A stretch of DNA of 25,372 nt from positions 1-25,372 of the forward strand of contig FMBT01000281.1 of NCBI GenBank assembly GCA_900095095.1. The letters are read 5' to 3'. The position numbers and the translations under genes are program-made. The DNA comes from Fragilariopsis cylindrus CCMP1102. Taxonomy: Eukaryota; Bacillariophyta; Bacillariophyceae; Bacillariales; Bacillariaceae. The notes beneath the pieces were generated by a model. That model made no database searches and was not told where the DNA came from. It saw only the letters and a program-made list of their open reading frames with translations. This document shows, one piece after another, positions 1 to 25,000 of this stretch. Position 1 is the first letter of the stretch. Every line of letters starts with the position of its first letter.

Positions 1-444
1 AATACCAAGGTCGTTGTTGTTCTTCTTCTTCGTCGTCGTTGCCGTTTTCGGTTACCGTAATTCGAGCGATATGGTTGATCAATTCGCGGATGGCTTCAAC
101 ACCACCCCTAGCGCAAGTCATACCGAATTTCGTAATCGCGTTGTCTACGAAATGTTGATGGATGTCACCACCAATCGAATATATCTCCCTTCCACGATCT
201 GCACCTATTCGTGATGAAATCGGTGTCTGATCACCATCTCCTAAAGGATCAGCGTCATTCTTATCACAATCTGTTCCAACCTCGATAGAGGATAACGTAT
301 CACGTATAATCGATTTCTGTTTTTGTAGTGAGTGCGTCGTGAATGTATCCAATATTTGATTAGTTTCGATGGATTGTTTCACCCTTCCCGATTGGCGTGA
401 CCTTCAAAATCAATTATCACCTCATCGTTATCATTGGATGGCAT
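1..444 (-). CDS. Unknown protein, 3' end off the window, one frame break or intron
   Basis: An ATG at 444-442 follows an A7 run and opens MPSNDNDEVIIDFEGHANRE, which stops near 380. A second minus-strand frame then stays open to base 1 and looks coding: an Asp/Gly-rich stretch, then SIGGDIHQHFVDNAITKFGM around 190-100, then TCARGGVEAIRELINHIARI, and an acidic DDEEEE tail before the edge. The frames join if one C is added on the plus strand near 382-384, or through an intron of about 105 bp (GTGATA at 420 to ACAG near 316, phase 0). I do not recognise the family. The ARGGVxxIxxLI stretch resembles the loop-1 region of histone H4 (ARRGGVKRISGLI), but the next helix is interrupted by acidic residues, so a histone fold is only a weak possibility. 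Confidence 0.5.
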
Positions 445-766
445 TTTTTTCGTGGAAAGTCTGGGGTATTTAAACCTGCCTCTTCGTTGTGATGTTCACT
501 AACAGAAGCAATCAATCTTAACGTTGTGAGTTATGATTGTTGATGGCTCCAGTTTCAGAAAATGTCTACAAGACTGATTCGATTCGTGATTGAAGTTGTC
601 TATCTATTTTTTGAATTTTTCATTTATTTTATGAAATTTGGTTCAAACATGTGCATTATTGATCATTTTTCGCCACTCCGATTGTTACATCTTTTCCGCC
701 ACGATCCAAGATTCAAAATCAAAATGAAATCGATGCTTTGTTAATATAAAACTGTATTTATTGTTC
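445..766. other. Intergenic spacer between divergent genes
   Basis: AT-rich, no convincing coding region; the 60-residue open frame at 562-744 is hydrophobic and uses codons unlike its neighbours. A TATA-like stretch (taatataaaac) at about 742-752 lies just before the proposed ATG of the LRR gene at 767. Confidence 0.4.
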
Positions 767-3700
767 ATGCATAGTCCTGCAAAAGTACATGTGGTAATTG
801 AATAGATAAAGTTATTCCATCGAGTATACGTATCTCGTCATTACAAACAGCAATAGCTGAGGGCGACGGAAGAAAAATTCCCACAGCAACAAATAACAAA
901 CAACTGAGACGACGACAAATAATGATTTCACCTGGTACCGTAACCAGAGACAATGACAATGCCGATGTTACTATGGGGGACAAAATAATGATAGTAGTGG
1001 TCTAACTATTGTTACGTCTATGGATAGCACCCCAAACAATGATGACGGAGTCGTCGTGCTTGTTTTCAGCACATACGCCTTCATCCACCACAATAAGTTC
1101 GGCGAGTTCTCCTTCTGCGATTAGTCCGGAAGCTCGACGGATAGCTTCGGCTTTATTAGTAGATGACGAGAAACAACGGATGACGATGAAAACGCTTTCG
1201 TAACGAACAATAGCAACCGTGATTACCTTTGGGGGTACCACCCCCTCTTGACGACGACGACGATGAAGAAATACAAGAATCGTCACATCATCATCATTCT
1301 CTTCCCGATGCAGAAGAACTCAAAATGTCCGTCCTAGCAGCGAAGAAAAAGTTCATCTGCGAATGATGACAATAGCAGTAGCTATAAGACAATGAAAATT
1401 ATTCTAATTGCGTTCTGACGTTCCTTTTCTTTATTGCTGTCATATTAGGATTTGTCTTGGGAGTAACAGAAGTCGTAACAATAATAATTCGAATAATTAT
1501 GATGATGATGAATTCAAACAACAACAATTACAAAACCAACAGCAAAATACCTTCGGTGGTGATAACAGCAATAGCGAAAAAGAATATCGATTGCGTTCCT
1601 TACAAGATTATTTTATAAAACATGGTGTTACATCAGAAATTGATTTTGATAATAGTATATCAGTAAATTCACCACAATTCCAAGCTGTACGATGGTTAGC
1701 TAATCAAGATTATGAACAGTATACTACATCATTGGATCTAGCAACAATTAGTACGTCACAAAAAGATTTAACAACACGGGAGGGGTATGAATTAGTAACA
1801 CGATATATAATGGCTGTATTATTTTATACGACAAAAGGTAAAAATTGGGATAGTGAATTAAATTTTCTAAATAATAATAAAGCTACATGTGATTGGTATG
1901 AAATTTTTCCACCACCTATTGGTCAAGTTGGTGTATTATGTAATCAAAAGACACAACAGATTATTGGTCTTTCTTTGAGTAAGTTTTTCACTGTTTCTGT
2001 TCTTTATGTTACTAATTATCATTACCAGTATACATTCGAGTGTTATTATTTCAATTTTCTTTTCCGTTTTGTAGGCATATGTATGCCGTAATACATGGAT
2101 AATATTGACGCGAGAATTAAAACTCATCCATTTTTTCTTTCACCGTATGACGTATTCATAAAATAAACAATTTACGTATGATCAACCAATCAGTCAGTAA
2201 CAACGTTGTTGGGAAACTTCCAACAGAATTATCACATCTAACAACATTAACGTATTTGGAATCGATTGGTAACTCTATAACAGGAACGATCCCAAATGAA
2301 TGGGGGGCATTAACAGCATTACGAACTCTTGTTGTGGCGTTTAATGAACTAACAGGAACAATTCCATCTTGGTTCCCGGAGAAATTTACCGACATGGAAT
2401 TTTTATATTTAAGTAATAATATGTTGACCGGTACTATTCCAGAAGAATTCGTTGAATTTCAAAGATTATCAGTATTAGCATTGGATGATAATAGTCTCTC
2501 AGGATCATTGGATATCATTTGGGACCTTCCTGCTACTCTCGAGTATGTATTCTTAGAAGATAATGAAGTTACTGGTACATTGCCCGCACGTATTACCGAG
2601 TCACAGCCACTTCTTATTAATTTAGATATATCCTCGAATCGATTGGGTGGTTCGTTACCTGAAGATTTGTTTCAATTATCACATTTGGAAATCCTTGATT
2701 TACATGGTAACTTATTCCAATCAACAATACCACAAGATATATATCCTGATAGTGAACGATTGAAGTTTATTGCTCTTCATAAGAATGTAATCGATGGTAC
2801 AATACCATCTACAATCGGAAATCTACGAGGATTGTCACATTTGGATGTTACGTACAATCGACTTAACGGAACAATCCCAATTGATATGGAACGATTAAGT
2901 GATATGACGTATCTATTTTTGGGTGAAAATAATTATAAGAAGGGACCAATACCCAGCTTAATATATTCTATGGGAAAGTTACGTGAACTATCATTAAAGA
3001 GTTCAAACCTACTGGGAACAATTTCGAATGTAATCGGTGCATTGGATGATTTAATCGTGTTAGATCTAGATGATAATTTATTAACTGGATCGATACCAGC
3101 AGAAATTGGGTTACTAACGAATCTTCAATTTTTACTTTTAAATCGGAATGAATTGTCATCATCAATCCCATCACAATTGGAAAATATGGATCAATTGCGT
3201 AAGTTCAAGTGTTTTCTGTATATGGCTTTCCCTGTATAGCTTGATTGGTTGTACCTCTCACACACAAAACATTGTCCATATTTTTCTTTACTTTTTCGTG
3301 TATCAGAATTTCTTTTACTAGACAATAATCACTTATTTGGTGATTTGACTGCCACGTGTACTACGTTGGAAGAAATGCTTAATGTTGTTTACGTCGATTG
3401 TGAAGAAATAACTTGTTCGCCAGGATGTTGTACTTGTTGTGTTGATGGTCAAACTTGTCATGACAATAATTTGTGAGTGACTTATTTGTTACATTCGTAT
3501 TTGTACTGCACATCACGTTTACTAGTAGAACAAAAAAAACAGCTTCAGTTCGCGTTGCTTTGCAATATTCCAAGCGATACTTGCTCATCATAATTTCTAA
3601 CTTTTTCTATTATTTCCCCTTTCTTTTCACGTCAAACTTGTACGATTGTATTGTGACAAACAAAACAAAAAACAGAATAAGTAGTAATGATCCTGTATGG

Positions 3701-3829
3701 GAGGCAGAATATAAGAGACAATTCTTTGATTTTTCTGGTATTGGGAAGGGCCATGAAGGATATTATAACAAGGACGGCGACGATGATGATACACATTATT
3801 CGAATATTCACAATGATGATTTCAAGTGA
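767..3829 (+). CDS. Diatom leucine-rich-repeat receptor-like protein, frame-broken N-terminus
   Basis: Exons end at 1978, then 2194-3198, 3307-3472 and 3676-3829; introns 1979-2193 (GTAAGT), 3199-3306 (GTAAGT) and 3473-3675 (GTGAGT) keep frame exactly. The protein has a Ser/Asn-rich N-terminus, a transmembrane helix (LTFLFFIAVILGFVLGV, about 1415-1466), a linker with SPQFQAVRWLANQDYEQ, a Cys-containing cap, about a dozen plant-type LRRs of the LTGTIP kind, then a Cys cluster (CSPGCCTCC) and an acidic tail. No kinase domain follows, so it is likely a membrane-anchored recognition or adhesion protein; its ligand is unknown. The 2194-3198 exon is intact. The part before about 1470 is coding-like but split among frames, each break needing one added base; tracing back leads to ATG 767, an inferred start. 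It could instead be a pseudogene with a decayed 5' end. Confidence 0.75.
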
Positions 3830-4032
3830 GTCGATTTCGAGTCAAAGGATCACGGAATGCCGTATGCCATTCAAGCTATAGTACAGTAACAATAAAATAT
3901 TTAAAAAATTAACTTCCAATCAGAAATTACAGTTTGTGTGGTAGTTCTTCGTTATTAATTCTTTCCTCTCTCTCTCAACGGTATCATAGACAATTACTAT
4001 ATTTGTGTGTTCATTTTGTTCAAGAAGTATTT

Positions 4033-4908
4033 TTATATTACATTCCATTTTTGAAATAATTCTTCCAGGTAGGCTCTTGATGGGAATTCCCCTCTTCGTG
4101 TAGCAATCCATTCATATTGTTTAATCCCATTACGATAGGCAAACATTGCAGGTACATTATCAGCAGGCCAATTAGGTATAGCATCATCCGCATTAATAGT
4201 CAACAGACGCAGTCGTCGCGATTTTTTTGTTCTTCGACCGCAATTATCTTCATCTTCATCATCATCATCATCATCATCGGAGCTGTAATCATTATTATTG
4301 TTATTGTTATTATTGCTATTATTGTATTCTCGTGATATTTGATGTAATTCTTGTACTACATGATCTTTTAAATTACCAGAATTTTCAGTCATTGTTATTA
4401 TTACCCACTTTCCATCCATAGATGCATCATTGACTTGTTCCTTCCAATCATTTCGTGTTATATGTATTATTGAAGTAGAATCATAATGATTATTTGATGA
4501 TGATAACGCTACTTTGATCTTATTCTTCTCATCGTGTTGTTTCAATTGTTCTATTCGTTCTTGTCGATATCGTTGCATAAAAGCTTCACCATCAGGATCA
4601 TCATCCTCAAATGAGTCATCGTCATCATCTTCGTCATTTACTTCTGCTTCTTCATTGTTCGATTGTTTATTGATTTGGATATCGGTCCATGATTTGACAT
4701 GTTTCTTGCTATGTTTCTTATCATGATCTTTTTCTTCTTCTATTAGACGAATTGCTTCCTCAAGTGATGCACCCTTTGCCATTAATGATTGTTCTTTCGT
4801 CACGATCTTTCTTCGTATTAATTCATCATCAAATTCTGTTGTTGCTGTTGTATACTCATGAGAAGGTTTAGAGGTTGAATACTTGGTAACACCACGACCT
4901 TGCATCAT
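4033..4908 (-). CDS. Phosducin-like protein 2 (PhLP2/PDCL3 type)
   Basis: A single-exon, 291-residue protein. Residues 24-38 (TEFDDELIRRKIVTK) match the conserved PhLP2 N-terminal helix, and 109-123 match the FMQRYRQERIEQLK region. Residues 145-270 form a thioredoxin-like fold with IHITRNDWKEQVNDAS, then AIPNWPADNVPAMFAYRNG as the cis-proline strand. The CxxC pair of true thioredoxins is absent, as expected for this family. Family members bind the CCT chaperonin in the cytosol and help fold actin, tubulin and related clients. The protein is longer than the usual 240 or so residues because of acidic stretches at 90-106 and an Asn/Asp run at 196-221, encoded by AAT and GAT repeats in this window yet with no frame break. 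It converges on the LRR gene (203 bp) and diverges from the IMPase gene (307 bp). Confidence 0.85.
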   Translation of the reverse strand: MMQGRGVTKYSTSKPSHEYTTATTEFDDELIRRKIVTKEQSLMAKGASLEEAIRLIEEEKDHDKKHSKKHVKSWTDIQINKQSNNEEAEVNDEDDDDDSFEDDDPDGEAFMQRYRQERIEQLKQHDEKNKIKVALSSSNNHYDSTSIIHITRNDWKEQVNDASMDGKWVIITMTENSGNLKDHVVQELHQISREYNNSNNNNNNNNDYSSDDDDDDDEDEDNCGRRTKKSRRLRLLTINADDAIPNWPADNVPAMFAYRNGIKQYEWIATRRGEFPSRAYLEELFQKWNVI

Positions 4909-5215: not shown

Positions 5216-6541
5216 ATGTCGCCATTAGTAATACGTAACTACAATATGCCATCCCGTATGCTACTACTGCTGCCTTTGTTGCTACATGTACTGATACCTG
5301 TTAAATTGCTGCTTTCCCCAGCTGCTGTCACAGCCTTTGTCTTTGTCCCCACGGTTCCAACAGCTTCTACTACCGGTAGTCTTCATAAAGTAATTCCGAG
5401 CTATTCTACCGTCACCAGTACGTCTGTTCCTTCTTCCCCTTGGTTCTTCAGAAGAATACCAGCAATACAAACGCACTTACTAGCATCAACAACAAAACAA
5501 AAGGACGACGACAACGAGAGCAACAGCAACAATAATAGTGATACTGTGCCATCTGAATTATTATTAGAAGAAGTACTACGTGTTGCGATTGATGCATCCA
5601 AAAAAGCAGGAGAAATTATATTGGGCAATGCAGGTGGTGCAGAAGTGACACAACGAAAAGCAAATAGTCGTGATTTATTAACTTTAATTGATCCATTATG
5701 TGAAAAAACAATCAAGACCACAATTTTAGATGCATTTCCTAATCATGCCTTTTTAGGTGAAGAAGATGTTCCACCCGGAAAGGAGGCAAGTGCTGCTGCT
5801 ATTGATGAAATATTAAAAACAAGTGGTGGTGATTGGTTATGGATCGTGGATCCTATTGATGGTACCACAAATTTCGTACATGGTATGCCATTGAATATGC
5901 CATCCATTGCTGTGGCATATAAAGGTGAAGTTGTGGTAGGTGTGATCAATGATCCACATCGAAATGAAGTATTCACAGCAACGAAGGGTGGGGGTTCGTT
6001 TTTAAATGGTGAATTGATTGAAGTTGGACCACAAAATGAACTTGGAGATGCCGTTGTTGCTATGGGATCACCACCGGCGGAAGAAAGTTTAAAAATGAGT
6101 TTAATCGGCGTACAAGCATTAATGCCAAAAGTTCGTACCATCCGTATGTTAGGATCAGCTGCAATTATGTTAGCATGGATTGCAAATGGACGACTTACAG
6201 CATATTGGGAGTACGATCTAAGGTTAGTATATAGTATATAATAAACATAGTATGTTGCTTATATCATATACATCGCAATGCGTACGGGGAAGGATATAGA
6301 AAGATTGTCTACTCTGCTCCTCACACATTTTTTTCTTCTCTCGACTCTGACTCTGACTCTAACTCGCATTATTAGTTCATGGGATATTGCTGCGGGAGCG
6401 TTGATAATAAAAGAAGCAGGAGGTAATTTCACCGATCTAGCTGGTGATGAATTTACGTTGAGGACGAGAAAAATTGTCGCTAGTAATGGGATGATACACG
6501 ATGAGTTACTGAGTGTTTTGAATGATGCAGGTGTCGTTTAG
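5216..6541 (+). CDS. Inositol-monophosphatase family enzyme, probable plastid form
   Basis: Two exons, 5216-6222 and 6376-6541, separated by a 153 bp intron (GTTAGT...TTAG), give 390 residues. Family motifs are all present: GEE at 181-183, [12 protein letters not shown] at 212-223, MLGSAA at 311-316, and the second metal site SSWDIAAG starting at about 336, completed only across the splice. The family hydrolyses phosphate monoesters such as inositol 1-phosphate with Mg2+; some members act on histidinol phosphate, so the exact substrate is not fixed. Residues 14-41 are a Leu-rich hydrophobic segment ending in TAFVFVP, like the signal peptide plus AF motif that directs proteins into diatom plastids, followed by a Ser/Thr-rich transit region to about 95. 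The first ATG gives the complete signal; the catalytic part starts near 115. It converges on the lactonase gene, 295 bp away. Confidence 0.85.
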
Positions 6542-6836: not shown

Positions 6837-8659
6837 TTAAGCCTTTTCTGCTAAAAGCTTTCTCAATGATTCAATCTCGCGTTTCGCCTTAGCAAGTTCG
6901 GCTTTGATGGTATTATCTTCGCCAGGGAATCCTTGTCCCCATGCAGGAACAGTACTATCTTCACTTTCGTCTGAACCCATACTAGTACCACGACTACGCC
7001 CTTCTTGGATAGAAGATACAGTGGTAGCAGTAGTATGTGATGAAATCAACATCTCGCTGAGATTTAATTGTGATTGTAGTGGAGGAGTTTCATCCTCAGT
7101 ATGAGTTGGACAGCAACAAACAAAGTTCGGTGACGAGACACGATATTCATTACCAGAATATTTAAGTTGACCATTGCTCAGATTAAAATTGAACACTGCA
7201 ATTGAATTAGAATCTTGATTGGCAACCAATAAGTATTGACCAGAATTATCAAACTGAAAATGCCGTGGTGTTTCCCCGCGTGTATGGAAGCATCCGACTG
7301 TTTGGAGTTCTCCCCGTTTCGATCCTTTACTTTTCACACGAAAGACAGTGATTGATTGATGACCACGATTCGAAACAACAACGTAACGACCAGATTTGTG
7401 TACACACATACGACCGCAGGTATTCATAGTAGTAGGAAAAGCGTGGGGAATAGTCTTAATGGATTGGACTAAGCGAAGAGTCGATTGACCTTTGAATCGA
7501 TTCATATCCTCACCATTCTTCGAGGCATTATAGATTTGATCTAATAGTTCCCGGTCAACTTCGAATACAGCAACCTATAATACAATACAATGTTAAAGGA
7601 CGAAAGGATAAAGAAGGAAAGGCAGGGTTCAGAATTAGTGTCAATTATCAAGTGCAGACAAATATCAAAAGATAACACAGTCGGTCGACTTACCGTAGAA
7701 CTTAATTCATTGACAACATATGCAATATTATATTGTGGATGAAATTCAAAATATCGTGGCCCGTCAGGTTTACCAGTGCAAAGACCAGATGGCATTACAT
7801 TTAATTCGATAGCAATATTCCCTTCAATGCATCATAATAAAATTCACGTACTAAATCTTTTCCTAAATCGGGAACGTATGCAACTCGACCAACAAATGGA
7901 TCCAAAACTAGTGCATGTGAATGTGGATCAGCTTGTCGTGCGGATATCGTATCATCGTCATTAAAGGAATGATTAGCACCACCGTCTAATTTTCTTGGAG
8001 CAATCATTGTCTTTCCCTGATTGGGATCGTATATGTTCTTAACACCATCTGATGATAATTTACCAGTATCTGGATCAATTGGTATAACAACTAATGTTGA
8101 ATTCCAATAATTAACTGCTAATAGATTCCGTTGTGCCTTATCAATTGTTAAGTAACATGTTGATGTGCCACCAGCATCAACAGGATCACCAAATTGTTCA
8201 ATGTACCGTCACCTTTTAATTTATATGCAATAATTTTTCCATTCTCGTGACAATCTTCTGTACAGGTATAAACCACATTCAATCTTGGATGATGACGTGA
8301 AAATGCTGGATTCTTAATAACAGAGGCATTACCTTGTACATTTAATAATACAAGTGATCCATCTGATGGATGGAATTGGTATACGTAGATAGAATCTGTT
8401 GCTTCTGTACCACGAGGACCGTGAGCTGTGTTGTGCAAGTGAAAGCGAATTAACGGAACGATAAGGATGACGAATGCAAGCAAGCAAGCCGTAATATGTG
8501 AGGAATATTGATAGGAGGAAGAAGCTGTACCGTATCTTCTATGAATGTGGTATGATACGATAACTTACCAAGTTTATCAAAATCAGAATAGGATGTAACA
8601 AAGAAGAGTTGATCATCTTCGTCGGCATTCATTTGGTCGAACTCATTTTGAACACTCAT
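6837..8659 (-). CDS. Lactonase-like seven-bladed beta-propeller protein (two frame breaks)
   Basis: Three exons: 8569-8659, 7694-8425 and 6837-7574, with introns 8426-8568 and 7575-7693, both starting GTAAGT. The N-terminus reads MSVQNEFDQMNADEDDQLFF. Repeated propeller strands follow, such as HPSDGSLVLLNVQGNA, then NPAFSRHHPRLNVVYT, PHSHALVLDPFVGRVAYVPD and GETPRHFQFDNSGQYLLVAN. These fit the 6-phosphogluconolactonase/carboxymuconate cyclase-like family (Lactonase, PF10282). The activity here is not proven; family members hydrolyse sugar lactones or related rings. A C-terminal tail ends in a short coiled coil (AELAKAKREIESLRKLLAEK), unusual for the family. Exon 2 changes frame twice, near 8199-8204 (before EQFGDPVDAGG) and near 7819-7823 (before NIAIELNVMPSG); each needs one added base. 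Both joined reads match propeller spacing, so the gene is probably functional. Confidence 0.8.
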
Positions 8660-9769
8660 GATGATTGCTTAGCTTGACAGTATTATTATTAGTAGTAGTA
8701 TTATCGACAAAAAGGTTATGATGTATTATATTTATTCTATGAAAGATGTATGTAGTAGTCTCTAGCGTTTGATTATTTATCTGTATTTGATTAGTTTGTT
8801 TTTGATTGTTCAAGTTTTTATGAGACGATCGAGAAAGGTAAGGAATATATGATGAGGAGGAGCGTTGGAAGAAATTGCTATTTGGATTGATTGATATGTT
8901 GTCAATATTTTCTATGTGTTAATTGTGTGTGACACGGAGTAGGTTTTGATGGCAATTCTGTTAGTCGTATCAATATCGGTTTTGTCGTTTTTCTTCTTCT
9001 CGAAAGAACAAAAATCAACGTGATATAAAGCGAGACGGTCCACGATCGTAAGGACGATCAAGTTTTTTTATCACTTCAACGAGAAAAGAGGAATTCACAA
9101 AACTGGAAGAAAAGAGCGGTGTCAAGAGAATTTCGCATGGAAAGCGAAGACTTATTATGTGAAGTTATTGGTTTTAGTAAAAAGAAATTAACAGATGTCA
9201 TGAGAATTTCCGCCAGAAAGACTAAGTCTCTGAATTTATTGGTTTTAGTAAGAAGAAATTAACATATGTTTTGATGGTCCTTTTGCGCGGTAAAATAATG
9301 ATTGCATTTTGTTTTTCAAAATTAGTCAATAGCTCTACTGAAAAGTAGGAATTGAAAAATGTTCATAAAACAGGTTTTACCGTAGCCTCACAGGTTCGCC
9401 AACTATCTGGGCATATATAATATTTTGTACAACAGTAGCACGACTGATAATATAATCCGGGGAATTGAGGTGTCACCATCAAGAGATATCTCGCTTGAGT
9501 CAATGACATCGTCGACAATCAATCAAGCACAGCACAACACAAACAACAGAATCATATCTATCATCATTCACCCTCAAAGAACGCAATAAAGAGAACGAAG
9601 TCAGTCGTACAAAACAAGGAAAAAAGAAATCAACTGGCTGGAATAAAAAGTGGACAGAGCTCCGAATAATTAATAAACATAAACAGAAAATAGCGAAACA
9701 GAGAAAGAAAGGAAGAGAAAAATAGACAAGTTAGTGTAAAACAAAAACAACAGAACAACATTATCAAAT
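8660..9769. promoter_or_regulatory. Divergent promoter region, lactonase / dehydrogenase
   Basis: About 1.1 kb without a supported coding frame. A TATA-like box (atatataat, 9413-9421) lies 350 bp before the dehydrogenase ATG and is followed by A/C-rich sequence (9500-9769) that resembles a long 5' UTR. An imperfect direct duplication lies at 9121-9267. Confidence 0.4.
9121..9267. repeat. Imperfect tandem duplication, about 75 bp unit
   Basis: Copy 1 is 9121-9196 and copy 2 is 9197-9267. Both start gtca(a/t)gagaattt and share ttattggttttagtaa, then aagaaattaaca. The middles have diverged, so the duplication is not recent. Confidence 0.75.
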
Positions 9770-10648
9770 ATGAGTCCAACAGCAGGATTCAAAAATAAGG
9801 TCATTGTCGTTACCGGTGCGGGAGGTAATTTTGGAAGAGAAGGATGTTTATACTTTGTGCAACGAGGTGCTAAGGTCGTCGCTATGGATAATAATCAAGC
9901 AGCATTAGAAGAAACTGCTACGTACATCAAAAATCAGTTGTCAGATTCAGATGATGATGATGTCTTAGATTCATTATTTGTCGTTGCGTGTGATGTAACT
10001 GACGTAACTAGTGTCGAAAATGCTGTCGATTCTGCTGTAAAACAATTTTCAAGAATTGATTTATGTTGGAATAATGCTGGATATCAAGGTCAGATCAAAC
10101 CTACATTGGAATATGATTGTAAAGATTTTGCATTAGTTATGAATGTTAACGTAACTGGTATGTTCATTGTATTACAAACAATTGCAAAACAAATGGTCAA
10201 ACAACAAAAGAAAGACGACGATAAATATGTCGAAGAACCGACAAAGTATTCGATTGTTAATACATCAAGTGTGGCAGGATTACGTGGTACGCCCGCAATG
10301 GTTGCATACGCGTCAAGTAAGGCTGCTGTTTTAGCAATGACTGTATCAACGTCGAAGGATTTAGCACCATACAACATACGTGTAAATGCTATCAGTCCTG
10401 CATTAATCGGACCAGGTTTTATGTGGGACCGTCAAAATGAACTTCATGCCAAAAGTGGTTCACCATACTTTGCTACCGATCCAAATCAAGTTGCACAAAA
10501 TAAGATCAATAGTGTACCAATGAAACGATTAGGAACAATCCGGGAAGTTCTTCAATCAGTATCATTCTTACTAAGTGATGAATCGAGTTATACTACTGGT
10601 ACCAATTTAGTTATAGATGGTGGAATGAGTGCTGGTCTGAAGTGTTAA
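9770..10648 (+). CDS. Classical short-chain dehydrogenase/reductase
   Basis: An intronless gene of 292 residues, a normal length for the classical SDR family. The nucleotide-binding loop is TGAGGNFG at 15-22, with Asp40 at the end of the second strand, which usually favours NAD over NADP. NNAG is at 101-104. The catalytic residues are a Ser in VNTSSVAG (163-170), Tyr180 and Lys184 (YASSK). The C-terminus ends LVIDGGMSAG, the usual SDR dimer strand. The protein would oxidise or reduce an alcohol/ketone pair; the substrate cannot be told from sequence. No targeting peptide is visible, so it is probably cytosolic. The start context (tcaaatATGAG) and an upstream A-rich leader fit translation initiation at 9770. 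Codon use and frame are clean, with no breaks. Confidence 0.9.
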   Translation: MSPTAGFKNKVIVVTGAGGNFGREGCLYFVQRGAKVVAMDNNQAALEETATYIKNQLSDSDDDDVLDSLFVVACDVTDVTSVENAVDSAVKQFSRIDLCWNNAGYQGQIKPTLEYDCKDFALVMNVNVTGMFIVLQTIAKQMVKQQKKDDDKYVEEPTKYSIVNTSSVAGLRGTPAMVAYASSKAAVLAMTVSTSKDLAPYNIRVNAISPALIGPGFMWDRQNELHAKSGSPYFATDPNQVAQNKINSVPMKRLGTIREVLQSVSFLLSDESSYTTGTNLVIDGGMSAGLKC

Positions 10649-10649
10649 T

Positions 10650-10650
<1 letters not shown>

Positions 10651-11691: not shown

Positions 11692-11848
11692 AGCATTTCA
11701 TCAATTGGGTCATGTATTGAATATGTGTTATGTAGAGCTGATCAAAAAAAATTAAGAGCTATTCAAGAATAATGACCTACAACTTTGTGTACATGATGTA
11801 TTCGGAATAGCAGAATTCGAAACGGGATTGATTCCCATCACGTACCAT
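11692..11848 (+). repeat. Dispersed repeat, copy 1
   Basis: Starts agcatttcatcaattgggtc and ends ccatcacgtaccat. It matches 15716-15871 in the same orientation with substitutions and small indels. In one frame both copies give FHQLGHVLNMCYV, then a Lys/Leu/Glu-rich stretch and FETGLI, so the repeat was once coding. Copy 1 has an in-frame stop after LIKKN. Further weakly coding stretches run to about 12180 (for example SDSSNSSDDDDIFDGAGG near 12056-12110). It is probably a relic of a mobile element of unknown class; no ends or transposase signature were recognised. Confidence 0.7.
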
Positions 11849-12388
11849 GATCCTCGTTTGAATCTGAAGCTTGCTGTTATGACTATATTAGAATGGAAAG
11901 TTACCAGGAATATCACGAAGGAATGTTTTACAAAATTTACTGTAACTTGTAAAGCCTTTTGTAAAGAAAATATGCACTAGTCCAGCCACTAAAACTAGAT
12001 ACAAGTAATAATGAAGCCACTACTGACACTGGTGGAAGAGCTATTCTGCTGACAGTGATTCCAGCAATAGTTCTGATGATGATGACATATTTGATGGTGC
12101 TGGTGGTATTGGATGTAGTGAATAAAGTCAACAAGTAGGAGATAAAGCAGCGGCAATCCTAGAATTCAAAAACAAGTAAGTGTCATGAAAAGTATTGTGC
12201 TGAGGAACTTACAGATTCAGCACTTTGTTCTTTGTATCCAAATGAATTATTTTACCAACAGATGGACAAGCATGAGATGTCGTTCAAAACCTACTAAGAT
12301 CGATTGTATTCTAGGGCCCAAAACGCGTTCATGCTTGTCCGGAACACGCCTACTACTATTGCGACATAATCTCATCTGACATCGTTCT

Positions 12389-13030
12389 GTTCTTAGTTTG
12401 AAACCAAGTGCAGTGCCTAGCAATATGCCAAATAATTCACCATCAGTAGATCCTAGTTCTTCACCAAGTGATGATCCTACTACTTCACCTTCTGTTAGAC
12501 CAAGCTCACTTCCAAGTTCTGTTCTTAGTTTGAAACCAAGTGCAGCGGCTAGCAATATGCCAAATAATTCACCATCAGTATATCCTAGTTCTTCACTAAG
12601 TGATGATCCTACTACTTCACCTTCTGTTAGACCAAGCTCAATTTCAAGTTCTGTTCTAGAATCTTAGTTTGAAACGGAGCAATATGCCAAATAATTCACC
12701 ATCAGTAGATCCTAGTTCTTCACCAAATGATGATCCCTACTACTGTAACTTCTATTAGACCAAGCTTACTTCCAAGTTCTGTTCTTAGTTTGAAACCAAG
12801 TGCAGCGCCTAGCAATATGCCAAATAATTCACCATCAGTATATCCTAGTTCTTCACTAAGTGATGATCCTACTACTTCACCTTCTGTTAGACCAAGCTCA
12901 ATTTCAAGTTCCATTCCTAGTTTGAAACCAAGTGCAGCCCCAAGTAGCAATATGCCAAGTAATTTGCCATCAGTAAATCCTAGCTCTTCACCAAGTGTCG
13001 ATCCTAGTGAATCACCTACTGTTAGACAAA
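12389..13030 (+). repeat. 132 bp minisatellite encoding Ser-Pro repeats
   Basis: Five tandem units start at 12389, 12521, 12653, 12781 and 12913. Units 1, 2 and 4 are exactly 132 bp (44 codons), unit 3 is 128 bp and unit 5 is cut short. Each encodes repeats such as PSNMPNNSPSVDPSSSPSDD and TTSPSVRPSS. This resembles Ser-Pro stalks of diatom cell-surface or wall-associated proteins. Unit 3 has a deletion after AGTTTGAAAC and small insertions, and it breaks the frame: one frame runs 12398-12667, another about 12727-13077. No start, signal peptide or anchor was found, so it is either a fragment of a larger, eroded gene or a free minisatellite. Confidence 0.8.
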
Positions 13031-13140
13031 AGTTGGTGGTAGAAATTTTGACCAGAAAAACCATAGTGTGTATTTGAAGGTAAAGTTGGACAGATCTTAA
13101 CAAAATTGATAGTAAAGAAGAGACAATATTGAAAAAAATC

Positions 13141-13300
13141 TCCCTACGGCTGTGCCCCTCACCAGCCGGATAGGCCATGAAGGAAATCCATCCCCCTCAC
13201 TCCCCGGATGGGTGGTTCCCTCCCATGCCCTCCCTAAATGATGGGGATACGCCCCCTCATACTACCCCAGTTTTCAAGGCTTTGCCCTCTCAAATGGCAC
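13141..13300. other. GC-rich compositional patch
   Basis: A C-rich stretch of about 160 bp (cccctcaccagccgg, ccccctcactccccgg, acgccccctcatac) inside AT-rich DNA. The plus frame at 13177 reads Pro-rich (HPPHSPDGWFPPMPS) but is short. It may be an insertion from elsewhere; the family is not recognised. Confidence 0.5.
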
Positions 13301-13377
13301 CTTATATAATATATACACGTATATATGAACTGAAAAAATATAGACTATTTACAATATAAATATACAACTGAAAGGAA

Positions 13378-13475
13378 AGGTATACAATATACAATATACA
13401 GTATACAAAACTAAATGAAAAAGTATACAGTATACAGTATACAGTATACACATATACAACTGAAAAAAGTATACG
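13378..13475. repeat. TATACAG heptamer repeat cluster
   Basis: Runs of tatacaatatacaatatacag and agtatacagtatacagtatac, with interspersed tatacaactgaaa units. It forms an alternating pyrimidine/purine AT-rich block upstream of the SLATT-like gene. Confidence 0.85.
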
Positions 13476-13476
13476 G

Positions 13477-14110
13477 TCCACCCTGGTATAAAACTAATTA
13501 CAAATTACATATTACACTCTGTATTCAGTACGGCGGTAGTATACTCAAACCTGAAATATATTAGAGTTAGATACTGTCAGATACTGGACAGAACTGTGTA
13601 TGCAGGTAGAAGTTGGACTAGTGCCTAGTATTTAGCTTGAATATTTGTACAGTACGACGACTTTAACGCGATGCGCGGATCTTGGCACCCCGTATAAATT
13701 ATTACCCCTGATCGTCTCAAGCCAGAAGCGCTTTAAAACCCGAGTTTCTCCGTTGATGCCAAACATTTAAACAATAACAACCAAAAGAAAATTCTTTTGG
13801 CGTTTAACACCATGATAGTAGTATCAAAAAATGTCAAGGAATGAAGTTTACATAACTACAAGAACAAAGAAATATTCTGACGCATTTACATCTTCTCTCT
13901 CTCTCCTCTCTCTCTCTCTCTCTTTAGCTAGAGCTAGCTATGCGGTAGAGATTACAAGAGAAGAAGCGGAGAACAAGTACCCCTGATAATATTATTCAGT
14001 ACCGCGATGCCGGTTGTGTAGATACTGCAATCATATTATTATTGGCTACAATCAATACCGTACGAAAGATTGTAAAACTATCCTATAATAAATTAGGCAA
14101 TACTTGTACA
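13477..14110. promoter_or_regulatory. Upstream region of the SLATT-like gene
   Basis: No coding region seen. A TATA-like gtataaatta is at about 13691-13700. A (TC)n tract lies at 13891-13924, then gctagagctagc, a short palindrome. The motif acccctgat occurs near 13706 and again near 13979. Confidence 0.4.
13891..13924. repeat. (TC)n microsatellite
   Basis: A polypyrimidine CT tract interrupted once (ctctcctctc), about 190 bp before the proposed ATG at 14111; possibly 5' UTR or core promoter. Confidence 0.9.
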
Positions 14111-15337
14111 ATGGTTGAAGAAAACGAGACGACTGCGTTGCTAGCAGAGCCGAGTGATAATACTAATAGTGATAGTGATATGGAAAATGCTCGTAAATCA
14201 AACAAGAAAGAGAAAGTTATTAATGAAACGTCATTATTAGATAATGATAACAGTAATATTGGCGGAATTACTTCGCCAAATGCAGTCTCAGCAGTATCAG
14301 CACGAGATAAAGGAGTCGACGTCGTCAACGACGATAATAAGCTAAAATTAGATTTTCATTCGGCATTTAGTTTAAAACAAGAGATCCAAATGAATAGAAA
14401 TAAGAATGCACTCACTTGGCAATTTCTATCAGGTAAGAGTCGAGTCTTTTTATTTTGTGTATTGAATAAATTGAAATGAAATAATAAAATGATCGTTGTG
14501 AATTTTTTGCTTTATTTTATTTAGCTGCTCGTCGACTATTAAATATACTATTATGAGTCCCAACACTATTTTTTCCCTTCTTACGGATTTATCACATGCT
14601 TATATTATTACACAGCCCTACAGTTTTGGTTATTTACTGTTCCACAGGCTATCCTTACTATGATTAGTGCTATATTAGCATTTATGGCAACATCTGAATT
14701 GTTCGATGCAAGAACTAAAATTATAATCAATACAATTGTAGGTAGTGCATCGGGGATTGTTGTTTTCTTACAAACTATGAGTGGTGTTTGTGATTATGGG
14801 ATACGAGCTTCGATGCATCAAACTACTGCTCTTAGTCTACGTTCTTTAGGAGATGATCTATCCCTTGTAGGGATCGAAGAAAAAGCTAAATATTACAATA
14901 GGAAAAAAAGTGATGATGATGATGATGATAACGATGATGAAAATAATGATTCTCCAAATTATACTTTTGAAGACCTCCGAACTCGATTTTTACAGTGTCA
15001 ATCTGGGTGTCAATCAACTGTCCCATTAAAAATAAATGACGCATTTGAAAGTCTCGATTCATCTTTATTGATCATGCTTACTGATAAGAATGTCTTCTGG
15101 TTGGTAAACCAATACCAATCGGCAGAAGCTTTTGTTCAGGATTTTGTCTACATTAGAGCATACGATATACTTACTAAAAATATTGTTGATTCTCTTTTTT
15201 GGCCATTTCATATTCCTAAAACAAAAATTCTGGTAAACAGAACAATAGAAGAACTTAAAAATGAATTGGTAAAAGCTGATTCATTTTTCCCAGAAATAAC
15301 TTCTACATTATCGTCAGATTCATCAGAATCAGCATAA
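14111..15337 (+). CDS. Two-TM protein resembling SLATT-domain proteins
   Basis: Exon 1 runs 14111-14432 (start MVEENETTALLAEPSDN), followed by a 92 bp intron (GTAAGA at 14433 to TTTAG at 14524). Downstream coding runs to 15337. The N-terminus is acidic and hydrophilic, ending KNALTWQFLS. Next come two hydrophobic helices, FTVPQAILTMISAILAFMA and IIINTIVGSASGIVVFLQT, then GIRASMHQTTALSLRSLGDD and a charged C-terminal half with an Asp run. A helical hairpin followed by an amphipathic helix with Met-His and Leu-x-x-Asp spacing fits the SLATT group, membrane proteins that in bacteria act as pore-forming effectors of nucleotide-signal systems; the role in algae is unknown. Exon 2 starts AARRLLN but stops near 14556, while the frame entering the first helix is open from about 14556. 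The join needs two added bases or one removed, or an unseen intron. The SLATT assignment is by pattern only. Confidence 0.6.
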
Positions 15338-15715: not shown

Positions 15716-15871
15716 AGCATTTCATCAATTGGGTCATGTATTGAATATGTGTTATGTAAAGCTGATCAAAAAAATTGAAGAGCTATTTAAGAATATTGAC
15801 CTACAAGTACACTATTCATTCGGATTAGTAAAATTCGAAACGGGATTGATTCAATTCCCATCACGTACCAT
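15716..15871 (+). repeat. Dispersed repeat, copy 2
   Basis: Matches 11692-11848 from agcatttcatcaattgggtc to cacgtacca. It stays open in one frame (CYVKLIKKIEELFKNIDLQV and FGLVKFETGLIQFPSRT), reaching 15938, whereas copy 1 is stopped. It carries an extra tcaat before cccatcacg. It is probably a less decayed fragment of the same unknown element. Confidence 0.75.
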
Positions 15872-16230
15872 AGTACGACTGAAAGTAATCTTCAAAAGTA
15901 ACCGCGACTGCATATATTGTTTCGCCTCTTCCGAATGACTTGTTAAATATCAAATTCAAAATTAAATTTTTAAAACGAGTTGTTTGTCTTTTTTTGTCTT
16001 GAAAGTATAATAACGAGATTGGTCGTAAAGGACAGTACAGTAGAGCATTCTTTACTGTAGATTTTAGAACTTTTGCAAATTGTGGTAGCAGCACGATCGA
16101 AAAGGAAAACAACTATTTTCTTATTATAGTATTTATTTCTCAAAGAAAGAAAGAGAGAGAAAGAACATATTGTCGTCTAATAAACAAGTAAGTAAGTAAT
16201 ATTCCATTCCATTCCATTACTATTATTATT
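15872..16230. other. Spacer before second LRR gene
   Basis: AT-rich, no supported gene. A purine-rich aaagaaagaaagagagagaaag lies near 16142-16163 and a (ATTCC)n stretch near 16200-16217 just before the ATG at 16231. Confidence 0.4.
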
Positions 16231-16422
16231 ATGTTAGCCCGTGATCGATTCCAAACTGAAACACCGAATGTTATTGATCCTGGTGAGGATGCTCCACCAT
16301 TACCAAATCCAAATCGTCATTGTTCTTATAGTTTCGAAGATGAATATAATGATAATGGTAATGATAATGGTAATGGTAATAGCAACAGCAGTGGTACTTT
16401 TAAATCAAGTCGAACAAGCCGG

Positions 16423-16455
<33 letters not shown>

Positions 16456-19034
16456 CGTCGGGGAAGTGATATCTACAGAAATGGTAATAAGGGAACTATT
16501 TCTAAGGGTATTCGTATCTCACGTTGTATTCTAAATGATAATGATAAATTACGATGATGATGATGATGATAAAAAACAACAACAACAACAACAACAAGAT
16601 TGGTGTCTTCGCAGCAGCGATGATTGATGAGTCCGAAAGACGACAACACAGTAGCAGTAGCAGTAGTCGGAATCTTCTACTTAACATCAGCAATAGCAGC
16701 AATCGTAGCAGCAGACGTAACAGCATCAATAGTAGCAGTCGCAGTAGCAGTAGACGTAACAGCATCAATAGTAGCAGTAATAGCACTACCATCATCGACC
16801 GCAGTAGACAGGAATTATTATCATCGAAATCATTATCCTTACGAAAAATGATGAATCGTGCATCCTCATTTCGAGGAGGCAGTAGTAATCTATGTATCGA
16901 AGATAATGATATTGAACAGAAAAAGAGAAATTTCAATTCAATAATGAGGAACTGGATACTATTTATTTAGTAGATGATATAATGATACCAACAATAATAA
17001 TGTTATTACTAATGATATTACAGTATCTCATCGTCATCATCGTCATCATCATCATCGTCCGGTAATAATAAATATCTTGATTTTCTTCAAAGAAAAATGA
17101 TGTGTCCGTATTGGTATTTGTTTCATTGTTGCAATATTGGTTGTGACGAGTTTTGCGGTGTAGCAGCAATGTCTCGTCATCCACAACAACAACAACAAAA
17201 TCAATCTCATCGTCATCATCATCATTCGAGGTGGAGGTGGGTGGAAGTGGAGGAGAAAGTTCAGTAATGCGTCTACAGCTGTAAAGATATCTAATGATAA
17301 ACGTCTTGAATCGATAATTCAGTTCTTATCATCATCCTCATCATCATCGTCGTCGTCATGTCTTTGGAATCGGAAATTTCAATTTCATCTACAAAAGATT
17401 TGTATGATTCATCCTCACCACAATATCGTGCTGCTAAATGGTTAGCAGATGATGATTCAGAACGTCTTGCTGTACCATCAACATCAACAACTGCAACAGC
17501 AACAGCAATGTCATCGTCGTCTCCCTTTAACTTTGTTCAACGGTACGTCTTGGCCGTTTTATACTTTGCTTTAGGTGGTGGTGGTGATGGTAGTGGTGGT
17601 GACGATAATAATAACAGTAACGGATCATCATCATCATCATCATGGAACAATGATTATCATTTTGTTTCAAATGATCAACACGAATGTTCTTGGTTTGAAA
17701 CAGTTTTAGTTGACAACAACAACAATAATAAGAAAGACAACAACGTCGGTGGCGAAGACGACTCTCAGCATTATTACGCTATGGGGGTGACGTGTGATCG
17801 TGACTTACAAGTTCGGAGTATTTCATTGCGTAAGTTGTTGACATAAGTACTACTTCATCATTACTAAGTAGTCCTATACCATACAGTCACAAACACACAC
17901 ACACACACACAATGCATTGGTATACCTTTGCTTTCATCTATTCTCACCATTCATCATTACATTCTTCCTTCCTTATCATATTTCTTTCTATCACTTTTTG
18001 TGCAGCCTCTAACAATTTGAAAGGTAGCATCCCACGTGAAATCCAGTATCTATCTAGACTTGACTATTTGGATTTGTCACATAATTCTATTGACGGATCA
18101 ATACCACACAGAGAATTATTCTCTCAAAAGAATTGATACAATTAGAATATTTGAATCTAAAAGATAATCAGTTGACAGGACCATTATTACCACCATATTT
18201 TGGGATGCCGAACAATCATAAACGGTTGCGATTTTTAGATCTTTCAAATAATAATCTTATCCATGATGCAAAATCAATCGAAAAGGATAACATTAATAGT
18301 GGGGTCTCCTCCGAGTCGTGGCACAACGATGACCATCTCGGTGAGACTAATCTTGAAACTCTTGCTCTTGGTGGCAATAATAATAATGATAACAATCTTG
18401 TCGACGATGAAGATGAGAACGAGAACGAGGATATCACAACAACGACAACCTTCATAGTCCCCGAACAGATTCGATTATTGACAAATCTACGTGAATTATC
18501 GTTGAATAATATGAATTTGATTGGTACTATTCCATCTTGGATAGGATTAGAATTACGACATTTGAAATCTTTGTTATTACATGACAATAAATTCGTGGGA
18601 ACAGTACCTGAATCAATTGGTTCATTACCAAATTTAGGTAGGTACAGTAAGTACAGTTCAGTACAGTACAAGATGATGAATGCATACGTGCATACATAGT
18701 AATAATAGTCTGATGTTGCTCGCAGCGACGAACACGAACGTTATCTGCTATTTTTGAGAACAGAAAATCTCTAACGCTTTATTTGTGTTTCTTGCTCCTT
18801 GTTCTCTTCTTCTAAAATAATATTGATACAGTCACCCTCACCCTTCATCATAACAATGTGACTATGGGAAGTGATAACGGTGCCTTTATCTGCGCAGCCG
18901 ATAGTGATTATTTTTCATCCTCATTTCCGAAAACAAAATTGGTGTTGGAAACATTAATAACTGATTGTGGAGATACCACTTGTTCATGTTGCAACGAAGT
19001 ATGTTGTGACACTGAAGATTGTTTCAGGACATAG
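16231..19034 (+). CDS. Second diatom LRR receptor-like protein, many frame breaks
   Basis: A paralogue of the gene at 767-3829. ATG 16231 opens MLARDRFQTETPNVIDPGED, followed by Asn/Ser-rich repeats (RRNSINSSS twice). A transmembrane helix (FIVAILVVTSFAV) lies at about 17100-17160, then RLESIIQFL near 17300 and SSPQYRAAKWLADDDSERL from about 17415. Splicing removes 17830-18005 (GTAAGT...GCAG, contains an AC microsatellite) and 18638-18831 (GTAGGT...ACAG), both phase 1. LRRs include NNLKGSIPREIQYLSRLDYL and LRELSLNNMNLIGTIPSWIG; the C-terminus ends in a Cys cluster (CSCCNEVCC), as in the first copy. Frame changes lie near 16550, 16920, 16976, 17028, 17093, 17120, 17155, 17255, 17350 and 18126; most need one added base, the one near 17155 probably two. 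With fewer LRRs than its paralogue and so many breaks, it could be a pseudogene, but the LRR exons are well kept. Confidence 0.65.
17890..17912. repeat. (AC)n microsatellite in an LRR-gene intron
   Basis: About eleven CA units inside the 17830-18005 intron. Confidence 0.95.
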
Positions 19035-19387
19035 ATTGGGATAGCAGTTCATACAGTAACAACAACAATGATGCGTATACATGGTAAATGATGAAATTGA
19101 GATATTGCATCGAGATTGGTTCTTCTACGTGATTGTCACTGACTGACCAATCAATGGGACACAAACACACACGCCACCACAAATAAAAAATGAAGTATAT
19201 AAATACATCTTCTACCAAATAGTATAACCATATGAGATTTCATAACAAAAACAGCTATCGCATCATGATAGGAACATCTTGTTGCACTGCACGTACGTAG
19301 ATCCTCATGTTTCTGGTTTCACAAAAAAATGATTTCCTAATATTAGAAAATAAATATTCGCGAAAATGTCATCGTTGTTTCACTTTT
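19035..19387. other. Convergent 3' spacer
   Basis: Region between the second LRR gene and the thioredoxin gene; it holds the 3' UTRs of both. No supported gene. Confidence 0.5.
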
Positions 19388-20269
19388 TTAATCATAGGCT
19401 AGGTCTACTAGAGTAGTAATGTAGCATTCTTTTCTCTTCTCTCTCTTCAATTCTCTCTCTCTCTCTCTAAGAAATTTTTGGTTCCGGTCCACCAAAAAGT
19501 GATGTTCACACATTGCAATAATGTCGTCCCTTCTTAATGCACCTTCGACCCGTCCTTTCAAAACTGCGGTTGCTGCTTGTTGTTCCTCGGAGACCTCTTC
19601 GTCCTTACCTTCTGGTGGAGTAAATTTATCTAGGAACAGTAAAGTTGGTAATCCATTAATAGCTAATCTTGTTGCCATTTCTTCTTCTTTATCAGTATCT
19701 AACTTAACAAATCGTACTTTCCCCTCAAGATCTTTTGCTGCTGCTTCGAATTCTGGACTCATGAGCAAACACGGACCGCACCACGTGCGTAAGCGTCTAT
19801 AACCAACGGGGTGTCCCATTCTGTTAAAATCATTTCCAATTGTTCTCCGGTAACTACCGACGAAAAAGAAGAAGAAAGGAAAAAACCCAAGAAATAGTGT
19901 TAAATCTTAGAATTTTAATTTCATTGTCATTCCTACAAGACATCTTTATTTATTTTATTGTATCTTAAACTTACCCATGGTAGCCAATTTGACCGCTTCG
20001 ACCTCTTCGTCAGCGGCGGACATTGACAACGGCGACGTCCTTCGCGTACAGCTGCTGCTGCTTCCGCATGTCGTCACCGTGAACGCGTTCGATGAAACAA
20101 CTACAGACTGATACTTAGAAGGAAATAAGTTATTGACATCATAGTATGTCTTTTTATTTACTCTGCTGTATTCTTTGCTCTTTATTAAGAATAGAGGCTG
20201 TTCTTTGTCGTGGATCGTTAATAGAAGCGCAATGATACCGTAGTAGTGTGAGATGTGTCTTGGAAGCAA
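19388..20269 (-). CDS. Thioredoxin with probable plastid presequence (one frame break)
   Basis: Two exons, 19975-20269 and 19388-19853, with a 121 bp GTAAGT intron (19854-19974). Exon 2 encodes VTGEQLEMILTEWDTPLVID, then the active site WCGPCLLMSPEF, and further on VRFVKLDTDKEEEMATRLAI and NGLPTLLFLD with the cis-proline. These are the complete thioredoxin features, so the product should reduce disulfides in target proteins. The read before the active site is DAYA and after it TWCGPC; the two lie in different frames and one base is missing at about 19786-19789. Exon 1 contains VVVSSNAFTV, like the AF motif of diatom plastid signals, followed by Ser/Thr/Arg-rich sequence, suggesting plastid location. 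The first ATG (20269) gives an unusual N-terminus, so the true start may lie in an upstream exon. The C-terminus has an extra charged tail (RERERELKREKRKE). Confidence 0.8.
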
Positions 20270-20597
20270 TTGATCGTACCGATGAAACTACAAATGATAT
20301 GTGTGTGTGTGTGGATGACGTTTTTAACAGGGGTTTTTAATTGGTTGCGTAAAATCCAAAAGATGATCGCGCGTGAAATTTCTCGGACTGGCCCTGCCAA
20401 ATAAAAATGTGACGTCATTTAGGTATAGTGTGCAGTGATATGATGTGGATGTTTGATCGACAATAACATTCATTCTCAGTGTCAAGGATCAATCAGGAGC
20501 GAGAGATCCAAACAGAGAAAAATAGAAATTACTATAAAATCAAAATCAAGATTAAAAACAACAACAACAACAACAACAAACCAAACCAAACCAAATA
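20270..20597. promoter_or_regulatory. Bidirectional promoter region with a CRE palindrome
   Basis: Between the divergent thioredoxin gene and the gene at 20598. It contains TGACGTCA at 20410-20417, a perfect bZIP/CRE palindrome. Half-sites TGACGT/ACGTCA control CO2- and light-responsive genes in Phaeodactylum. A (GT)n tract lies near 20299-20312 and a CAA repeat near 20559-20579 in the leader of the plus-strand gene. Function here is inferred. Confidence 0.5.
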
Positions 20598-21654: not shown

Positions 21655-22058
21655 ATATAACGATGAGGTAGAAAGATCATGTCCCATTCCAGGTATTATT
21701 CTATCTAAATGCTTCTTTTCAGTCGAATTTTCTTCATTATTTAGTTTCAATGATTTGTTCTTGTCTTTAAAATTATCTCAACTGTTAGGGTAGGAGGTAT
21801 GCTATACTTCAAATATTCTTTAACCTATTGTATTACATGTATAGCCGAGCTAACTAACCTGGTAGAAGATGAAGATATATCATGAGATAACAATATAGGT
21901 TTATTTATGTTCTAGTCCGGTATTATGTCGTTTTAGTTTTGAAAATTTAGAGCAAAAAAAGTTGATGATTATAAACAAACGACTGACGGCTGTACTTATT
22001 ATGGCCGATGTTCTCGTGTTGTTTCTCTATTCGTTAAGTGTTGGTGCAAACGGTGGTG
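21655..22058. other. Convergent 3' spacer
   Basis: AT-rich spacer between the plastid-protein gene and the potassium-channel gene; contains 3' UTRs. No supported gene. Confidence 0.5.
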
Positions 22059-25000
22059 CTATATCACCCTAGTTGGTCTCTCTGACATGGATAGAAGAGG
22101 AGTATGATCCGAAGGGTGTGCGGAATGTCTTTTAAAATTCGATGCAAACGAACCGCTAATACTGCTGATGCTACTGACGTTGCGATTTTGAATACCGTCG
22201 TAAAATTGTGGAGGTGGAGGTGGGTGTAGAGGTACTCCAGTATGAATCCAGTTGCCTGTAAATCCCTGAGACGCACCCGCCTGTTGCCGACGCTGCTGCT
22301 CTGACCTCTCTTGTTGATTGAGATGAATAGTGCGGCGACGTTTTTGAATCATACAACCGATTATCGATTTGCTGTTCAGGACGCCTTCATTATTTACATC
22401 AAGCTTGCGAAAAGCGGCGAAGGTCTGCTTTATATCGACCTCTGTGACTTTCCCTAATCTTATCATCATGGCAAGGGCAAACATTTCGCGAGTGCATTCG
22501 TCCAGCCCACGAGAATCTTTACCATCAAGGTTAATTCGGTGGATCAATGGTCCCGTAGCAAGCTCCCGAAGTGCATCGTCGTCCAATGAGTCTCCAAATT
22601 GACCTAGTACAGCTTGTTCTGTCCTCCTTTTTCTCAATTCTAAAGGAATCATACTTATCATGGACATATTGTTAAGCAGGATAGTCCCGGCCACTAATAA
22701 GTAAACAGTAGCAAAAAGTTTCCCTCCATCTGATTTCGGAACTATGTCACCATAACCAGTGGATGTTAGCAAGACTGTTGTAAAGTACCAGCTATCGACT
22801 AAGGAAAGACCTTCAATCAAATAAAACCCAAGACAACCAAATGCAATGATCACCAGTGAATTAATAAGGGCTTCCCGTAGGGTCAGTACGACATATTTTG
22901 CATTCCTCGTACTGTTCTTTCGGCCTCCGATTTCATCTGCCTCTGACGAGTAGGTGTCGTTACTAGAATCACTGCTGTCGACAGTCAAATCATCTATATC
23001 CCTTCCTGTGGCTCGCAAAGGTACTTCAAATAAGGGTGGTGGCAGCGGTGGTGGTAAAGACGATGATGGCAGTGTTGGATCTACAGTGTCATTATTGCCC
23101 ACGTCAGTGCTCGGTAATGTTGTATCGTGGGTGAATTGCGTTCCTTCCTTTACAGTTGCGGGAATATCCACAGAATTAGTTCGAAATCGTCCGAGATCAC
23201 TTCGTGGAGATACAAGGGCATTGCTTGTAGTGCTACCAATGCTTGCACCTCCGCGAAGATCCATAGACATATGTCTGGTATGACTCTGTCTGCCTAGGAT
23301 TTGGGAAGTCATGGGAGAGCCTAGCAGTTGTTTCTGCACGGACGGAGACTCCGGCGTTTTTCTTTGAACGATGGATGGAGAATGAAATGGTGAAGTTTGG
23401 TTTTGAATATTCGATAGATCATCTCTATTCATTGAGTGCGATGTTGGTACTCTTTCAGACTCAGAAAACGCTGGTGTTTCGTTGCTGGATCGTCGGATCT
23501 TTTTTGAAGCTCTCTCCGTCTCAGTCTTGTTTCGTAAAGATGTAGCGTCTCGCAAAGATGTAGCGTGCATTTCAGCTACATGCGCCATACTGGCTTTACT
23601 CTTAGCAGGTACAAATCCATTCATACGTCGATGCGAAGCATCCTTAATATTCTGAATTCTCGCACAATTTGGACATGCTTTGATCTGATTGGCAATTGCC
23701 TCTCTGTAAGATCGTTCATCAAGCATGCCGGCAATGTACGAACCAAGCAACAAACCAATGCATGCGACACCAAAATAGATAAATATGCTGCAGATAATTT
23801 TAGCTCCATCTGTAGTTGGCACGAGATCTCCCAAACCAGCAGTGGTCAAAGTAATCACAGCAAAATAGATGCAGTCAAGTTTTCCCCAGCCTTCTTGCAA
23901 ACCAAATACGTATAATGATATGATTACATAGACTGCAAAAAACAGAGAAACATATATTCCTGCGCTTTCAAATTGTTTGGGTGCACTTGAGACGGTAAAA
24001 AATTCTCTCTGGCGCGTCTTGCAAATGGGGCAGATATAGGTCGGATATTTGTTATCTGCACTCTCATGAGCACTCGAAGTCTGAGGGAGAAACTGACGCC
24101 TATCAAACTTATGGGCGGTCTTCTTGACTTTTGGTTGAAAAGGAGATGTATCTTGATAATGATGCCGTATTCCTCGGTTATCAGGATGCTTCTCCTCGTG
24201 TAGGCAATGAATATTCCGTTCATATTCAATTGAATCGTCACTTGAATGGTCCGAAACAGAAGGGGAGTCCCCGTTTACAAAAGAATCTATCCGCTGCCGC
24301 TGCTGCTGCTGCAGTTCCTGTTGGCTGAGTTGGCGTTCTGCGCTACCGACCATATGCACAGGGGAATAGCTTCTGTGGTTACTACCGATATGGGGGAAAT
24401 TATTGGACATAATTGATGTTTCTGAAATCCGGTTATCTGGGAAAAAATGTTGAGGACGAGGGTGGATATAATTACCATCGAAAGGTCTCTCGAAATGAGG
24501 CATCGATTCCGAATGATGATGATGATTGTGAGAATGCTGCTGCTGGGGGTGCTGTTCGAATTGAAATCGCTGGTCAAATGAAGACCCCATATCTAAATTC
24601 CCTCCCATATTTAGGTTCCCTTCCATATTAGTCATTGCCTCGCTATGAACGCGTTGATGGTTCGACCTTGGAATGTAGCGTGGCAGTGATTGGTAATTGA
24701 GACCTCCTTGTCTAATCATATTCGGATCTAATTGGATTGGAGGTGACGGATGTCTTAAATAGCCATGTTGAGCCCCATCATACGATCCATAATATGTGGA
24801 AGATGGTTCATCGATTTTGGGCTGAGTCAGATTGAGTGAATTCCTCTTTATCAATGATCCATTATTATTTTATTATCATTATTATTGAAGTGCATGCTAT
24901 ACGGAGTTTGAGTGTATCCTCCTGAAGCAGTATGAGGTGAAGGCACCTGTGGTGCTGACTCGTAGATTACATCAGATGGTGGCTGTGATATTGATGACGC

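Follow-up and report, generated by a model that had tools for sequence, protein, structure and literature searches.

Frame breaks in a 25,372-base contig of Fragilariopsis cylindrus: very probably residual single-base errors of the assembly

The window, i.e., the whole stretch of DNA analysed here, is the entire contig C474 of Fragilariopsis cylindrus CCMP1102. It is 25,372 bases long and belongs to an assembly of 67.9 Mb in 818 contigs. Nearly all of it recurs in a second contig, C661, which was first matched by a 27-base pattern taken from the window. BLASTN aligns the two copies in three blocks with 98.1–99.6% identity; the compared part of C661 comprises 29.8 of its 49.0 kb. Coding sequence was followed with a codon model, for which eight stretches of window genes (2,703 codons) served as training set, and a path search that allowed frameshifts and introns on both strands, applied strictly to the window and with a laxer penalty to both copies. 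For the remaining sequence, all three frames were inspected by eye.

Three genes of the window are clean, as the initial annotation had stated and the path search bears out. These are a phosducin-like gene at 4033–4908 on the minus strand (so named in the initial annotation), an inositol monophosphatase family gene at 5216–6538 on the plus strand (PF00459, with one intron) and a short-chain dehydrogenase gene at 9771–10648 on the plus strand (PF13561). At many other sites, according to path search and three-frame reading, coding frames abut without an intron. The strict path through the window breaks at 24871 in a channel gene, at 8201 and 7827 in a lactonase gene and twice in LRR gene 2. The window path includes neither the stretch 16,917–17,347 nor the N-terminal region of LRR gene 1; breaks there were located by eye and by the path through C661.

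The first affected gene is a partial one (8–446, minus strand). By three-frame reading, it is one base short near 380, and the letters are identical in C661. LRR protein gene 1 (800–3829, plus strand; Pfam LRR) consists of an N-terminal region, an LRR domain and, by eye, one apparent TM helix. Both copies are short near 975, 1170, 1231 and 1386, the window alone is short near 1472 and long near 1074 and 1346, and C661 is short at a splice junction (3470). The lactonase-type beta-propeller gene (6841–8660, minus strand; PF10282) is short near 7827 and 8201 in both copies and at 7911 in C661 alone. Its pieces cover positions 11–77 (below the curated cut-off), 81–177, 190–216 and 223–342 of the profile. 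Being consecutive, they imply that nothing large was lost at its two breaks, which does not by itself show the true DNA.

A Ser/Pro-rich repeat ORF follows at 12380–13077 on the plus strand. One of its repeats, near 12735, is one base long when compared with its sister repeats. Within the repeat array at 12298–12907, most of which is absent from C661, the window is about 580 bases longer, be it by a real haplotype length difference or by a collapsed array. A directly repeated sequence of about 157 bases flanks the ORF, with units 4 kb apart (11692–11848 and 15716–15871); they are 86% identical in the comparison of the two contigs and, over 91 bases, 95% identical within the window. In the non-exon stretch 13167–13905 the window lacks a single base of C661 at 10 places and never has an additional one. 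An ORF at 14543–15334 on the plus strand encodes a predicted membrane protein, the similarity of which to SLATT_5, a bacterial SLATT effector domain (E = 0.0082), stays below the Pfam cut-off.

LRR protein gene 2 (16230–19083, plus strand) was delineated by Pfam, path search and copy comparison. Here the window is short at 17158, 17261, 18132 and 19021 and long at 17106 and 17239, while 17350 is short in both copies. At 16920 the window is short without a clean witness, C661 being locally different. Multi-base net shifts are seen near 16546, 16977 and 17023 and at 17206–17223, where the window is 4 bases longer. The copies differ strongly in the N-terminal low-complexity part of this gene (16230–17829), with 88% identity in one block and a 117-base block present in C661 only.

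The thioredoxin gene (19388–19906, minus strand) is broken in the window at 19786, just 5' of the WCGPC active site, and intact in C661. Against PDB 7asw_A, the match of the window version begins at query residue 40 (3.6e-13), that of C661 at residue 14 (2.1e-21). The best solved-structure matches of the window version start at the active site; a few of the 60 matches listed start at 26–37. The channel gene (22059–25372, minus strand) encodes two Ion_trans_2 pore domains (PF07885). It is short at 24867 and long at 25361 in the window, short at 23201 and 23362 in C661, and each copy is open at the sites of the other.

The hand tally for the window amounts to 22 single-base-type coding breaks, 16 short and 6 long (p = 0.052). 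In addition, the low-complexity region of LRR gene 2 has four net shifts of several bases, located between 16,546 and 17,223. Together they are spread over seven genes or ORFs, which agrees with the roughly two dozen intron-less breaks in seven genes reported in the initial annotation. Eight breaks are common to both copies (near 380, 975, 1170, 1231, 1386, 7827, 8201 and 17350), all of them short, as inferred from the frame only (p = 0.0078). C661 is open at 12 of the 22: seven short (1472, 17158, 17261, 18132, 19021, 19786, 24867) and five long (1074, 1346, 17106, 17239, 25361; p = 0.77). The remaining two are 16920 and 12735, the latter judged by its sister repeats alone. The window, in turn, is open at all four sites where C661 alone is short (3470, 7911, 23201, 23362). 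A one-base difference between the copies at 20102, where the exon is unclear, and the stretch 16890–16930, where C661 has a net surplus of one base or a net deficit of two, were left uncounted.

Local best-frame codon scores favour the copy called open by at least 3.5 at 12 of the 16 private sites. The open copy is ahead by less than 1.5 at 17106, 19786 and 25361, and at 3470 the score speaks against it by 0.9. These four weak sites were decided by the apparent TM helix (17106), the thioredoxin match (19786), the open frame of C661 (25361) and the splice phase (3470).

With both contigs pooled, 20 of 26 breaks are short (p = 0.0094). The excess of short sites among the coding breaks rests on the eight shared ones. 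Where C661 decides, five of 12 are extra bases, and the bias is therefore not one-way. Thus, the earlier statement that nearly every break lacks one base is right as to the majority and wrong as to a single direction. Its seven cited sites compare as follows. At the T4 run 24868–24871 the window is indeed one base short relative to C661; the break at the A4 run 18126–18129 exists, but the additional base of C661 lies a few bases further on. At the A5 run 1346–1350 the window is instead one base longer than the open frame of C661, and for the A5 run 17093–17097 an extra window base is found about 10 bases downstream. The G5 sites 975 and 1231 do not differ between the copies, and the A5 site 16920 is the one without a clean witness.

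The comparison of the copies can be extended to non-exon DNA. The stretch 16,500–17,600 is too repetitive for MAFFT or megablast and was excluded from the ratios; outside it, the copies differ by 51 single-base indels and 44 substitutions. Counts by MAFFT and megablast differ owing to different gap costs, megablast yielding 78 substitutions. Indels relate to substitutions as 12:10 in exons and as 39:34 in non-exon DNA (Fisher p = 1.0). True coding indels are expected to be strongly depleted; with the two ratios alike, selection against frameshifts is not visible. The shortage of bases is most evident in non-exon DNA, where 31 of the 39 single-base differences leave the window one base behind C661 (p = 0.0003); in exons this holds for 5 of 12 (5 versus 7), i.e., there is no bias.

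The preference for short homopolymers proposed initially turns out to be weak. Runs of at least two hold 23 of the 51 single-base indels, compared with 45.3% of all bases (p = 1.0), whereas runs of at least four hold 8 of 51, compared with 7.0% of bases (p = 0.025). Two rules were tried and rejected. Two sense-strand G5 runs lie at breaks, but two others (5990 and 17783) and two G6 runs are in frame. Both lactonase breaks fall into the same seven-base word, yet this word is in frame in the clean inositol monophosphatase gene. A longer word, considered as a possible source of the seven-base word, occurs 16 times in the window.

Errors of the same type are found elsewhere in the assembly. A block shared by the contigs C32 and C551 has 3,519 columns, no mismatch and 24 gap openings. 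None of these openings falls within positions 1403–3286 of the C32 segment, which hold an HSP70 gene (chance of none, 2.5e-13). The gene is thus free of indels, its flanks contain 25 indel bases in 1.6 kb, and it looks as if exons had been selectively polished, perhaps with RNA or GC-dependent short reads. The absence of substitutions applies to the 3.5 kb block only; a second block of this pair (70–1170 of the C32 segment) has 13 mismatches and 11 gap openings. Eight further contig pairs share a block with at most one mismatch; seven of them have 1–6 gap openings and one has none. The divergent pairs C68/C694, C584 with C136 and with C644, and C612/C693 were excluded from this test, as was a second C221/C498 block with 5 mismatches and 7 gaps.

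Conserved genes on small contigs are affected, too. Chaperonin subunit genes on C347 (36.0 kb) and C655 (50.3 kb) are, by eye, each one base short, as judged by family motifs. The C655 gene also has two in-frame stops in the matched stretch, of which only part was retrieved. An HSP70 gene on C693 (37.7 kb) is one base long compared with a 93% identical paralogue on C612. Chaperonin genes are broken on two of five contigs below 60 kb and on none of eight larger ones (Fisher p = 0.13); in this count, gaps on C205, C91 and C398 were taken as introns unread, and the truncated C451 matches at the contig end, like the weak ones on C80 and C237, were omitted. Large contigs are not generally spared: the HSP70 gene of C70 (463 kb) is, by eye, also off frame, either two bases short or one base long.

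From all this we conclude that the breaks in the window are very probably single-base indel errors that remained in the long-read consensus of poorly polished contigs. Since the second copy is correct at many broken sites and broken at others, most of the breaks look like ordinary data error and not like new biology. The initial annotation had likewise favoured a base-calling error in the assembly, and the reciprocal breaks in the second copy, the similar indel ratios of exons and non-exon DNA, the gaps between C32 and C551 and the off-by-one conserved genes on small contigs sustain it. The argument, however, is one of reciprocity and not of direction bias, and it covers the private breaks, not the eight shared ones. 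At the latter, the second copy cannot decide, as it is identical to the first. Nor are the copies independent witnesses, for the shared breaks lie mostly where the two are nearly identical. Further points speak against an error: homopolymers are enriched only weakly, unlike in typical nanopore errors, the single-base differences in exons show no direction bias, three of the five chaperonin-bearing contigs below 60 kb are without a break, the large contig C70 has a broken HSP70 gene, and the chaperonin gene of C655 has in-frame stops.

Gene decay is improbable by comparison. It would make pseudogenes of LRR gene 1, the lactonase gene and others, with the lesions on both haplotypes, and it could account for the eight breaks identical in both copies, four of them in LRR gene 1. 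Decay is expected to add nonsense substitutions, yet the frame-aware path crossed no stop codon on the gene strands (parts of the LRR N-termini in the window being uncovered). Also, the lactonase pieces keep their Pfam order with nothing large missing, and the private breaks have an open counterpart. The initial annotation had expected random decay to yield insertions and deletions alike. The witnessed breaks come close to that (7 versus 5), but decay is not favoured thereby, because the other copy is open at those sites. By our judgement, a similarly slim chance is left to the view that the DNA really has at least some of the eight shared breaks, in which case genes such as LRR gene 1 and that of the lactonase would either be decaying on both haplotypes or be read via a recoding step.

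Quite unlikely, and more so than decay, is that each of two real haplotypes carries true frameshift alleles. The copies are probably true haplotypes, since they also differ by the 78 substitutions and, in LRR gene 2, by longer indels that are partly in frame. Frameshift alleles, however, would require complementary broken thioredoxin, channel, lactonase or LRR genes per haplotype, indels would have to be as tolerable in exons as in non-exon DNA, and allelism hardly explains the C32/C551 block with its 24 gaps and absence of substitutions.

Restoration of the frames by translational recoding or insertional RNA editing, which finds some backing in the shared sites only, 8/8 of them short, has a negligible probability, as at private sites (12 in the window, 4 in C661) the difference resides in the DNA of the two copies, bases are missing in non-exon DNA as well (31/39), extra bases also occur, and the sense-strand G5 runs at 5990 and 17783, in gene parts without a break, are in frame. 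In programmed frameshifting of the Euplotes type the ribosome passes over one base when it meets a stop codon, which makes the DNA look one base long. The window resembles this system in having many genes with frame breaks and differs from it in that its sites more often look one base short.

Consensus error would arise as follows. Small contigs and contig ends may be covered by few reads, or reads may be placed ambiguously between two near-identical copies. Errors could then be retained there, although polishing removed them elsewhere, and each copy would end up with its own set of errors, some being common to both. That the technology was long-read is our inference; similarly, some exons may have been cleaned by polishing with short reads or RNA reads.

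Comparable errors are described in the literature. According to the Kastor paper (PMC12007338), most indels of long-read assemblies are false deletions, and deletion errors show a strong association with homopolymer runs of two to eight. The errors described there and those seen here have in common that mostly single-base-type indels make intact genes look broken; in contrast to the deletions of that paper, homopolymer runs are weakly enriched here. The Homopolish paper (PMC8011154) deals with systematic nanopore errors that are corrected by homology. Like errors of this kind, some of the present ones could be common to both copies, with the proviso on technology made above.

Annotation of this assembly could turn intact genes into apparent pseudogenes, split models or genes with spurious introns, and particular caution is advisable with small contigs and contig ends. 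Where a region is present twice, reciprocal breaks provide a simple internal test for such errors, one that requires no raw reads.
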